From Clostridia bacterium (GTDB taxonomy: Bacteria > Bacillota > Clostridia > Christensenellales > CAG-138), in contig JAFXSG010000043.1 in assembly GCA_017525875.1 (NCBI GenBank), forward strand, positions 1-44,676: a stretch of 44,676 nucleotides of DNA. The letters run 5' to 3'. Below the pieces are notes generated by a model. That model did no database searches and was not told where the DNA came from. It saw only the letters and a list, made by a program, of their open reading frames with translations. The position numbers and the translations under genes were made by a program. Positions 30,682 to 32,043 of this stretch are shown here, one piece after another (position 1 is the stretch's first letter; every line of letters starts with the position of its first letter).

Positions 30682-30774
30682 ATCTGCCTCCTTGTCGGTG
30701 CTGCTTTGATTTTAGCATCTCGCGCTTTCCCTGTCAATCAAAAGGATTGTATATGAATTCTGCACATAATTCGC

Positions 30775-30803
30775 TTGACAATCGGGAAATGCTTTGATAT
30801 AAT
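30775..30803 (+). promoter_or_regulatory. Consensus sigma-A promoter of the two tRNA-Ser genes
   Basis: TTGACA (30775-30780), 17 bases, TATAAT (30798-30803). This is a perfect consensus, 17 bases before the first tRNA. Confidence 0.95.
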
Positions 30804-30820
30804 AATAATGTTGCAAACAG

Positions 30821-30909
30821 GGAGAGATGTCCGAGTGGTTTATGGAGCTGGTCTTGAAAACCAGTGATGCCGCAAGGCACCGGGGGTTCGAATCCCTCTC
30901 TCTCCGCCA
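30821..30909 (+). tRNA. tRNA-Ser(UGA), CCA encoded
   Basis: 89 nt. The acceptor stem GGAGAGA pairs with TCTCTCC. D-arm GTCCGAGTGG. The anticodon loop is CTTGAAA, with anticodon TGA. A long variable arm (GATGCCGCAAGGCACC) makes it a class II tRNA as required for serine. T-arm GGGGTTCGAATCCC. Discriminator G73 and encoded CCA. It is cotranscribed with the next tRNA, 6 bases away. Confidence 0.97.
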
Positions 30910-30915
30910 ATATTT

Positions 30916-31008
30916 GGAGAAGTACCCAAGTGGCTGTAAGGGGCTCCCCTGCTAAGGGAGTAGGCTCTGCGAAGGGGCGCGAGGGTTCAAATCCCTCCTT
31001 CTCCGCCA
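30916..31008 (+). tRNA. tRNA-Ser(GCU), CCA encoded
   Basis: 93 nt. GGAGAAG pairs with CTTCTCC. The anticodon stem CTCCC/GGGAG encloses CTGCTAA, anticodon GCT. There is a long class II variable arm (AGGCTCTGCGAAGGGGCGC region). T-arm AGGGTTCAAATCCCT. G73 and CCA are encoded. The 3' end (CAAATCCCTCCTTCTCC, 30988-31004) reappears at the end of the direct repeats downstream. Confidence 0.97.
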
Positions 31009-31044
31009 AAATAATAACCACCCATTCGGGTGGTTATTATTTTG
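31009..31044 (+). terminator. Terminator of the tRNA-Ser operon
   Basis: A 15-bp perfect stem, AAATAATAACCACCC (31009-31023) with GGGTGGTTATTATTT (31028-31042), closed by ATTC. The T-rich tail follows. It begins directly after the CCA of the second tRNA. Its right half is part of the repeat unit that follows. Confidence 0.9.
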
Positions 31045-31182
31045 TTGATCGAAGGGATTTGAAGGGCGAAGCAAAACGATCCTGCGATTCGTTTTGCAGC
31101 CCCGGTTTCGAGCGGAGCGAAATACGCCGCGATATGAGCGGCGTATGAGACTCATCGCGAGAAACCAAATCCCTCCTTCTCC
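31022..31182 (+). repeat. Structured 161-bp direct repeat, copy 1 (tRNA-Ser 3' mimic)
   Basis: Identical to copy 2 (31238-31398) at 157 of 161 positions and without gaps. It starts in the loop of the tRNA terminator and ends with CAAATCCCTCCTTCTCC, exactly the 3' part of tRNA-Ser(GCU) before GCCA. GGGATTTG near its left end is complementary to CAAATCCC near its right end, and two inner hairpins lie between them. No plausible gene is in 31009-31557. Confidence 0.95.
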
Positions 31183-31237
31183 ATCGGGCATTAACTCCGC
31201 CCGGTTATTCTCTCTTTACTTAATCTATGACTTCCAT

Positions 31238-31398
31238 CCATTCGGGTGGTTATTATTTTGTTGATCGAAGGGATTTGAAGGGCGAAGCAAAACGATCCTG
31301 CGAATCGTTTTGCAGCCCCGGTTTCGAGCGAAGCGAAATACGCCGCGATGTGAGCGGCGTATGAGACTCATCGCGAGAAACCAAATCCCTTCTTCTCC
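31238..31398 (+). repeat. Structured 161-bp direct repeat, copy 2
   Basis: Second copy, offset 216 bases from the first. Predicted fold: closing stem GAAGGGATTTG (31267-31277) with CAAATCCCTTC (31382-31392); arm A GGGC plus GCAAAACGAT (31280-31296) with ATCGTTTTGC and GCCC (31304-31318); arm B GGTTTC-GA-GCG (31320-31330) with CGC-GA-GAAACC (31372-31382), topped by ATACGCCGC (31338-31346) with GCGGCGTAT (31354-31362). The last base of arm B and the first of the closing stem compete. It also carries the right half of the terminator stem, but not the left half. Confidence 0.95.
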
Positions 31399-31407
31399 GT
31401 GGGTGAA

Positions 31408-31456
31408 TGATTTGACCGAGCGAGGGAACGCCGAGCGAGAGCAAATCACTCCTTCT
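31408..31456 (+). repeat. Short degenerate relative of the tRNA-Ser repeats
   Basis: TGATTTG (31408-31414) pairs with CAAATCA (31442-31448), followed by CTCCTTCT, again like the tRNA-Ser(GCU) 3' end. The inner part contains GAGCGAGGGAACGCCGAGCG, which resembles the GAGCG-rich part of arm B but is shorter. It begins 9 bases after copy 2. Confidence 0.6.
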
Positions 31457-31557
31457 ATTTCGCTATCGTTAGCCAGAAAGAAATTATTGTTGTACAATTA
31501 ATTGATGATGTGCTATAATATCAACGATCGATCTATTATTTGAAGGAGATATCCGGG

Positions 31558-32043
31558 ATGAAGAAACTGTGGATCTGTATACTTGCCATACTTGCCGGCA
31601 TGATCGCCTGTTGGGTATTGGCGATCATGTTGTTAGGAGGGTCGAATGACGAAGTATCAAGAAAACGCATAATTGAATATGTCGATCAAAACCACGAAAC
31701 ACTGGAGTTCGTTATACAGGACGGGATACCGGATGAAGAATCCGAACAGGAGGCTTTGATCCGAGACCGCTTTGGCAAGCAAAACATAGTTAAGAGTATA
31801 AGCAAATACAGCGACAGCAAGATAGGCTTTTACTGCGGAGGGACCGGCAATGCTACAAATTCCACTTATTCCGGTTTTTATTTCTCCGCTGCCGACAAAC
31901 CTTTTGCGCTGATGTTTTCTTCAGAGGCAAAACTGGAGGAGACTTCGCCGGGAGTCTATGAATGGAAGAGCAGCACGGGCAAGGAGATAATTACGGAAAG
32001 GATCATGCCGAACTGGTTTTATTATCACATAGTATGGAATTGA
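31558..32043 (+). CDS. Hypothetical membrane-anchored protein, 161 aa
   Basis: Predicted 161 aa from the ATG with AAGGAG 9 bases upstream. One N-terminal hydrophobic segment (residues ~4-27: LWICILAILAGMIACWVLAIM) serves as signal anchor; the rest is outside. The outer part is helical at first (RKRIIEYVDQNHETLEF), then beta-rich with a GFYCGGTGNATNSTYSGFYF turn. A similar small-protein shape (N-anchor, then IGFYCGG...GFYYS) is common in gut Clostridia; I know no function. It is AT-richer than most neighbours. It lies between the tRNA-Ser repeats and the convergent NERD gene. Confidence 0.7.
   Translation: MKKLWICILAILAGMIACWVLAIMLLGGSNDEVSRKRIIEYVDQNHETLEFVIQDGIPDEESEQEALIRDRFGKQNIVKSISKYSDSKIGFYCGGTGNATNSTYSGFYFSAADKPFALMFSSEAKLEETSPGVYEWKSSTGKEIITERIMPNWFYYHIVWN

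Follow-up and report, generated by a model that had tools for sequence, protein, structure and literature searches.

Units behind tRNA genes in several bacterial phyla, with both ends fitted to the host tRNA, as candidate mobile insertion sites

A family of small units was found behind bacterial tRNA genes, and its occurrence across phyla, its covariation, its specificity for the upstream tRNA, its insertion-like copy limits and its variable presence form the established part of this work. Each unit folds into a three-way junction, in which P1 is the closing stem and P2 and P3 are the arms. In P1, the 5' strand, here called the anti-T strand, complements T54-C63 of the upstream tRNA, and the 3' strand copies that tRNA from C56 toward its 3' end. 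Unit length is mostly 80-130 nt (about 170 bp with the terminator), and no gene was found inside the units. We tentatively read the unit as a non-autonomous, tRNA-anchored mobile DNA insertion site that acts as a folded strand, and we put the chance of this only just short of even. The insertion part of the reading is based on the presence or absence of a unit at tRNA-Ser(GCT), on copies that run from C56 to the tRNA end and on tRNA-specific tandem units in relatives. The DNA part is based on the hairpin that precedes the unit and on the types of apical loop.

The window (the whole stretch of DNA that was analysed, 44,676 nucleotides of contig JAFXSG010000043.1 of a Clostridia bacterium) contains two such units and a degenerate miniature one behind tRNA-Ser(GCT). 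E-values in the list refer to the covariance model R1 described below.

30775..30803, + strand: sigma-70-like promoter (TTGACA-17-TATAAT) ahead of the tRNA pair, consensus match 12/12
30821..30909, + strand: tRNA-Ser(TGA), the upstream partner
30916..31008, + strand: tRNA-Ser(GCT), the anchor tRNA
30988..31008, + strand: C56 to 3' end of tRNA-Ser(GCT), the segment copied at the unit ends
31007..31044, + strand: perfect 17-bp hairpin, terminator-like, between the tRNA and unit 1 (arms 31007-31023 and 31028-31044)
31054..31173, + strand: unit 1, three-way junction (predicted fold; R1 E-value 1e-28, unit 1 being part of the R1 training)
31054..31063, + strand: anti-T strand of unit 1, reverse complement of tRNA T54-C63
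31064..31102, + strand: P2 arm of unit 1 (predicted fold; covariation in alignments A1 and A3)
31104..31166, + strand: P3 arm of unit 1 (predicted fold; G/A-containing internal loops and an unpaired AT on the 3' side)
31166..31182, + strand: copy 1 of the tRNA 3' part, its first 8 bases forming the 3' strand of P1
31234..31260, + strand: terminator-like hairpin (31234-31249) and T-rich tail, ahead of unit 2
31270..31389, + strand: unit 2, three-way junction (predicted fold; R1 E-value 1.5e-29, unit 2 being part of the R1 training)
31382..31398, + strand: copy 2 of the tRNA 3' part, with one change
31408..31448, + strand: degenerate miniature unit of 41 nt with closing stem TGATTTG/CAAATCA; next comes CTCCTTCT, as in the tRNA tail

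As originally predicted, two direct repeats lie 3' of tRNA-Ser(GCT); at a length of 161 bp (31022-31182 and 31238-31398) they show 4 differences, and taken as 170 bp (31018-31187 and 31234-31403) they show 7. Their ends indeed copy the tRNA 3' part: the 17-mer CAAATCCCTCCTTCTCC, which occupies 30988-31004 directly ahead of GCCA, is found again unaltered at 31166-31182 and with a single changed base at 31382-31398; allowing up to 2 mismatches it has no further occurrence on either strand of the window. These copies carry just the first 17 bases of the segment from C56 to the 3' end. The proposed branched folding, a closing stem with two arms, was obtained for each unit and lay below 200 of 200 dinucleotide shuffles (z = -5.9 for unit 1 and -6.6 for unit 2), the predicted arms having internal loops that contain G and A. 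The tRNA-derived 3' end had thus been noted correctly, but it had been overlooked that the 5' end is likewise tRNA-specific, in inverted form: the strand GGGATTTGAA (from 31054 and from 31270) equals, at every base, the reverse complement of T54-C63 in tRNA-Ser(GCT). The 41-nt mini-unit had been overlooked as well.

A sequence search revealed more copies behind tRNA-Val and tRNA-Pro in the same genome and gave matches in 7 of 11 genomes of the genus, this one included. Twenty-two units were aligned with MAFFT (alignment A1) and R1 was built from this alignment; the E-values of R1 and of a second model, R2, are rough. At E < 1e-4, R1 detected 19 units in the genome of the window, behind Ser(GCT), Pro(CGG), Val(CAC), Leu(TAA), Gly(GCC), Gly(CCC), Gln(CTG), Tyr(GTA) and Ser(GGA); some of the units follow tRNA 3' fragments, or no tRNA was found. 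In the family, 70 of 103 genomes matched (E up to 1e-3, with a maximum of 23 matches per genome), as did 61 of the 92 family genomes outside the genus on which R1 was trained. The Clostridia loci yielded 104 distinct units, 75 with a tRNA within 900 nt upstream and 29 without. First units lie 43-58 nt behind the tRNA in this set and 21-104 nt behind it in the second set described below.

A few loci deviate in what precedes the unit. In L271:9760-9870 (contig C45 of the same genome) and L276:3100-3220, units follow a mere tRNA 3' fragment, of Leu and Arg type respectively, and islands may have inserted between tRNA and unit. Arrays without a tRNA directly in front show a palindrome-like sequence, TTGATACAAA...ATTGTATCAA, just before the first unit (L106:6745-6780 and, on the reverse strand, L266). 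A half unit at L033:1380-1500 follows what we take, from a remembered motif, to be the 3' end of a tmRNA gene, so that tmRNA may be an additional anchor.

Species genomes were scanned with a pattern (anti-T strand and GAAG ... T-arm copy), which returned 70 loci. At 47 of these the unit lies behind a same-strand tRNA to which it is fitted over its first 8 bases, 1 mismatch being allowed; 19 are of Clostridia/Bacillota type, 8 are from Elusimicrobia, 11 from Patescibacteria and 9 from others, which include Deltaproteobacteria, Treponema, Spirochaetes and Thermoanaerobaculaceae. The remaining 23 are chance matches, or units whose tRNA is missing or changed. The units of Elusimicrobia and Patescibacteria have the junction seen in Clostridia but different arms. 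The second set of units is mostly from these two phyla. RNAalifold on a further alignment (A2) recovered P1 and P3 but barely P2, so R2 models mainly P1 and P3. It matched 41 of the 119 genomes in one sample of the phylum Elusimicrobia and 21 of the 192 in one sample of Patescibacteria; a few of these genomes had supplied training units. Phage and plasmid records gave no match to the window unit, and a scan of viral contigs returned one contig with a unit, behind tRNA-Thr. The search of relatives with a covariance model, as had been suggested with the original prediction, gave tRNA-linked copies and compensatory changes in several phyla, and both homologues and covariation were found beyond the window locus.

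In A1, 18 of the 29 predicted pairs have changes on both sides. In A3 (119 R1 matches, 103 distinct) 95.4% of the cells pair and both-sided changes occur in 27 of 29 pairs, with a covariation of 0.610 against 0.174 when shuffled and at most 0.102 when slid. The corresponding values for A4 (103 R2 matches, 97 distinct) are 94.0%, 22 of 23 pairs, and 0.632 against 0.193 and at most 0.109. A3 and A4 were fitted to the models and therefore lean toward structure; A1 and A2 were not fitted. Within P3, one A of the 3' side never varies (22/22 in A1 and 20/20 in A2). The predicted folds leave this base unpaired in the window units and in L063, but pair it in L103. Both P1 strands have changed away from the tRNA in L119 (GGAATTTG/CAAATTCC) and in the window mini-unit, so the P1 pairing itself is maintained.

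The strong covariation is also what would be expected if the units were transcribed structured RNAs, acting in cis or in trans on tRNA processing or as sensors, with the anti-T strand switching between the T-arm of the tRNA and the downstream copy. We consider this explanation unlikely, though it deserves to be taken seriously. G-U cells exceed A-C cells by 91:31 in A3 (Clostridia), which favours the tRNA-sense strand as the folded one; this bias argues for a folded + strand, RNA or DNA alike, and the ratio in A4 is just 40:31. The anti-T strand can pair with a longer stretch of the tRNA (10 nt) than of its own copy, and weak promoter-like matches (9/12) stop 39 nt short of unit 1 and 14 nt short of unit 2 in the window, both of which would suit an RNA. 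Against an RNA stands the perfect-stem hairpin of at least 7 bp that precedes the first unit, behind the tRNA, in 43 of 45 Clostridia and 64 of 67 second-set cases; by the same criterion, which concerns the stem alone, such a hairpin occurs in 8 of 45 shuffled Clostridia intervals.

The apical loops point the same way. Loops of the type C(GNA)G or C(GNNA)G are stable in DNA. They account for 91 of 209 apical loops in the second set. The Clostridia have 27 such loops among 219, and their most frequent type is C(NGY)G (58/219). UUCG loops number 0/209 and 1/219; all were read from minimum-energy RNA folds, the counts have no background and kin units share loops by descent. The low number in Clostridia counts against the insertion reading. 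Stable mini-hairpins are treated in PMC10527192, as far as the available part of that paper goes. Nor does a known RNA family cover a unit in the stretches scanned. In the window, Rfam at gathering scores returned nothing but tRNAs, and a permissive scan of 30700-31600 added matches far below those scores, with no unit covered. Across the window and 11 further loci the matches were tRNAs and one LOOT RNA (RF03000, 78 bits, L045:6621-6736), which was rejected as the unit family as it differs in position and fold; the genome that contains it has tRNA-anchored units as well. The original statement that no named family fits therefore holds for all stretches scanned.

The specificity of the 5' strand was assessed by permutation, with rows that are not independent, as arrays and relatives share history. 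Exact 10-nt matches to the own tRNA (reverse complement of T54-C63) numbered 61 among the 75 Clostridia units, where 5000 permutations gave a mean of 12.7 and a maximum of 27, and 64 among the 86 second-set units, where the mean was 11.8 and the maximum 22; the first units of the second set had 52 in 67 (permuted mean 9.0, maximum 18). The totals of 75 and 86 are unfiltered; 12 of the 99 second-set units have no upstream tRNA and one tRNA was unparsable. With the Clostridia rows reduced from 75 to 65 by filtering for tRNAs that end in CCA, for units longer than 100 nt and for AA in positions 9-10, 58 of 65 units and 39 of 43 first units matched. The 3' copy was exact over tRNA positions 57-63 in 58 of 75 Clostridia and 59 of 86 second-set units, and T-arm variants that match their own tRNAs include GGGACTCG, GGGAATCG, GGGAGTCG, TGGATTCG and GAGATTCG. 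The complement of T54T55, A9A10, is kept in 100 of 104 Clostridia and 94 of 99 second-set units, a figure partly built in because search pattern and models favour GAA, and a T at the T55 place of the 3' copy occurs in merely 12/104 and 6/99 units. Because A9A10 is kept although the copy seldom has T55, the anti-T strand fits the tRNA better than it fits its own partner strand; a structural need of the junction could alternatively explain this retention.

The limits of the 3' copy follow the tRNA as well. The copy starts at C56, with T55 not shared, in 75 of 86 second-set and 55 of 75 Clostridia units. The full tail is kept in 44/86 and 19/75 of these tRNA-linked units and the others keep part of it. 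In 24 of the 44 and 13 of the 19 full-tail copies the match breaks off 0-3 nt from the reported tRNA end, at genes with an encoded CCA as well as at those lacking it, while in the remaining ones the shared sequence runs beyond the tRNA end, for instance into a repeated terminator. At CCA-less tRNA genes (27 full copies) CCA-like letters follow in 2 (L105 and L041) and not in 25; the L105 copy reads ...CCGACCA. A target-site duplication of fixed length is unlikely, as the copy limit follows the tRNA end.

These limits also bear on an insertion guided by RNA or single-stranded DNA, through target-primed reverse transcription or in an HUH/Y1-like way, with the anti-T strand as a 10-nt guide to the T-arm and the C56-to-end repeat as the target-site duplication. 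We regard such a guided insertion as improbable. The complement of T54-C63 is exact, including two bases that are not used in P1, and the L105 copy has a CCA that its tRNA gene lacks, as a guided process might leave them. However, copies end at the tRNA end with or without an encoded CCA, unlike a fixed stagger, and 25 of the 27 copies just mentioned do not resemble L105. The adjacency of a UG26 reverse transcriptase (RT) to a unit-bearing tRNA-Val and its partial co-occurrence with units in the family would also fit, but few unit-bearing genomes outside the family match UG26, and Y1 does not track the units.

In the genome of the window the UG26 gene ends about 100 bp before this tRNA-Val. 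Of the 103 family genomes, 19 have a UG26 match. The genus genomes with a full or split UG26 have 19 (G000), 15 (G002), 23 (G003), 11 (G004), 8 (G006) and 13 (G010) units; those without it have 0 (G001), 6 (G007), 0 (G008) and 5 (G009), and G005, with a weak UG26 match, has 4. A second genus (g23) has UG26 in 10 of 13 genomes and units in 13 of 13, and at least 51 of the 70 unit-bearing family genomes lack UG26. Among 34 genomes from 36 pattern loci (31 of them validated) UG26 matched in 5 and strongly in 2; by their identical positions and scores these two are probably G079 and G080 of the family. Of 20 UG26 RT loci, 2 have units nearby. The UG26 RT was rejected as the mobiliser of the units, since outside the family there are mere weak matches and UG26 loci share another upstream stretch.

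That stretch, AAACAGAAAGAGAACGC ... CGCCTGCGG ... GCAGGCAGC ... GTACGGTCCGGTACATTCAGGAA ... TTCTCTTTCTGTTT, is conserved at many UG26 loci (L003:11-1279 / L167, L168-L184) and is possibly an RT-associated non-coding RNA. UG26 loci also have an upstream gene with WWNTR in its end, and tRNA genes lie close behind several of them. Downstream of the RT in L175 and L179, repeated 5' parts of a tRNA-Arg(CCT)-like sequence precede the intact gene, resembling serial attachment scars. Two CRISPR-like repeats were seen in passing: an array (GTTTCAATTCCCTATGGGAATGGCAAAAG) about 400 bp before a 639-aa RT-like ORF (L185, G005), and 36-nt direct repeats (GTTTGAGAGTAGTGTGAATCTATGGGGTAATCAAAC) near a tRNA-Leu(GAG) unit on the reverse strand of L255.

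Other candidate partners were considered. A REP-like element with a Y1 partner had been offered as one interpretation of the repeats; this part did not hold, as Y1 presence does not track unit number (PF01797, which divergent RAYTs may escape). Y1 transposases occur in 14 of 34 genomes of pattern loci, compared with 8 of 14 genomes whose loci lack a tRNA-linked unit, and in 37 of 103 family genomes, with none in G002, G004 and G010. The integron integrase was rejected too, TIGR02249 being found in 0/103 family genomes at E 1e-20. Among the genes beside 44 arrays (109 of 132 ORFs scanned; most of the 23 omitted overlap a unit or a tRNA or belong to a group of five very long ORFs) no Pfam family occurred in more than 4, and the best 25 of the 98 families beside the arrays included no tyrosine recombinase and 2 resolvases.

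The comparison of orthologous loci supports the insertion reading. tRNA-Ser(GCT) could be read in 7 genus genomes (in G002 and G008 the sequence stops at the tRNA, while no query match was obtained in G003 and G004). A unit is present in 4 of them (G000, G005, truncated in G006 and degenerate in G009), and in G001, G007 and G010 there is no unit within 720 nt behind the gene. Together with the copy limits, this presence and absence at one orthologous tRNA is in line with the original suggestion of insertion at a tRNA 3' end. The terminator after the distal copy of L018 (tRNA-Leu) is of the type found directly 3' of a unit-free tRNA-Ser in G007, and that after the distal copy at the tRNA-Val of L003 is of the type directly 3' of a unit-free tRNA-Asn in L168. 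A complete tRNA gene with a displaced 3' fragment is the mark of tRNA-targeted integration according to the available part of PMC4383910.

In the favoured model, a mobile site recognised as a folded DNA strand, insertion would take place in the T-loop, just before C56. The module would supply a replacement tRNA 3' end and terminator, so that the tRNA would stay functional, and the original 3' end would be displaced to the distal side, as in large islands. The enzyme, acting in trans, would recognise the folded single strand (P1, P2 and P3) and not a linear sequence, and pairing of the anti-T strand with the T-arm would tie each unit to its tRNA. Genes may at times come to lie between units, in the fashion of cassette arrays. 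Several observations weigh against insertion: neither an excised circle nor a filled and empty pair within one species was seen, no recombinase could be linked to the units among the genes scanned beside the arrays, and the phage, plasmid and viral collections gave the single viral contig mentioned above. Moreover, a simple crossover does not explain that both P1 strands fit the new tRNA.

The unit bodies are not confined to one tRNA, yet they are not freely mixed. With units of the same array set aside, the most similar body follows a different tRNA tail for 42 of 50 genus units; 95% of the compared pairs are of this kind. Bodies with the same tail are thus over-represented among nearest neighbours (16% against 5% of pairs), which counts against insertion, as are those of the same genome (28% against 16%). 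The closest pair of bodies, 96% identical and from one genome, has the Leu(GAG) P1 GGGACTTG in one member and the Pro(CGG) P1 GGGATTTG in the other. In a tRNA-Leu(CAA) array a unit (L029) has a Leu(GAG)-like body, the tail ATCGACC and the P1 of its host with one mismatch; this mixed unit points to a later adjustment of P1 and to a history unlike a clean insertion.

It is very unlikely that the units have no dedicated mobility and that tandem duplication, homologous exchange between arrays and template switching during replication make and mend hairpins behind tRNAs: tandem pairs of equal score (e.g. G106), the paired P1 changes away from the tRNA in L119 and the mini-unit, and the separate matching of the two arms in searches would all fit, and hairpins created and maintained by template switching are described in the available part of PMC8794818, but junction, copy limits and anti-T length are alike in Clostridia, Elusimicrobia, Patescibacteria and at many tRNA species, and there are orthologous tRNA-Ser(GCT) genes without a visible remnant.

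Some intervals between units hold genes. On contig C40 of the genome of the window a unit is followed by an APH-family phosphotransferase gene, a unit, and then GNAT acetyltransferase and methyltransferase genes; at its tRNA-Val a 167-codon ORF without a Pfam match lies between a unit and a truncated unit. Two genes, one of them Abhydrolase_3, lie between one unit and two further units in L106, Glyoxalase_2, CDP-alcohol phosphatidyltransferase and a further ORF between two units in L252, and a RibD_C gene before a degenerate second unit, recognised by eye, in L045. These five intervals were spotted by eye and their genes have the same orientation as the units. When 71 arrays were checked by script, three long gaps were flagged, of which one (L106) was convincing; the gaps in L098 and L100 were judged to be chance second matches. 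The genes between units are suggestive of cassettes. In its fullest form, the model would be an integron-like system behind tRNA genes, in which folded single-stranded DNA units with a 10-nt anti-T guide choose a tRNA by base pairing, insert in the T-loop, rebuild the 3' end and terminator, and occasionally capture a gene; we hold this combination to be doubtful.

If the units are true inserts, they represent an overlooked layer of tRNA-gene evolution that would explain many tRNA 3' fragments, and the question is raised whether T-arm base pairing programs insertion. If they are RNAs instead, they form a new structured family coupled to many tRNA species.

Among known systems, REP/BIME elements with their RAYT (Y1) partner are short repeated intergenic hairpins and non-autonomous, as the units would be, but they are not tied to tRNAs and Y1 did not track the units here. 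MITEs are short and gene-less, with complementary ends and a flanking direct repeat. In the units, by contrast, both ends vary from one host tRNA to another, the repeat corresponds to a defined segment of the tRNA and there is an internal three-way junction. Non-coding RNAs of retron or DRT systems (UG26 RT) share with the units one adjacency and a partial co-occurrence, but the upstream stretch of UG26 differs from the units.

tRNA genes are classic landing sites for islands and phages. As described in the accessible part of the Islander paper (PMC4383910), tRNA-gene islands (attL/attR) leave, like the units, a complete tRNA and a 3' fragment in the same orientation that ends at the tRNA end, and they share with the units tandem copies and a sublocation in the T-loop or at the T/acceptor junction. 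The units do show the displaced same-strand 3' fragment ending at the tRNA end, but they differ from islands in their size of about 170 bp with the terminator, their lack of an integrase and mostly of cargo, their three-way junction and their inverted T-arm strand. According to the same part, Islander rejects candidates that are < 2 kb or without an integrase, so that the units, being small and without one, would escape it. The candidate RNAs named in the available part of PMC8040213 lie close to tRNA ligases and not behind tRNAs; tRNA fragments left by islands, and one in a CRISPR spacer, are treated in that of PMC9897764; no description of such units was found in the open-access literature.

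The integron attC site, as far as it is described in the available part of PMC3053210, resembles the units in that structure prevails over sequence, the ends are complementary and sites occur in arrays; a base that is unpaired on one side in some of the predicted folds, and a few possible cassette genes between units, may be further parallels. The units, in contrast, are anchored on tRNAs, are mostly gene-less and come without an integron integrase (0/103); of 203 units, 0 have both attC core sites (RYYYAAC...GTTRRRY) and 1 has either. Because a linked integrase, core sites and IntI are all lacking in the genomes and units surveyed and the open-access literature was negative, the units look like a kind of their own and are placed with neither tRNA islands nor attC sites, though they would work like such an attachment site.
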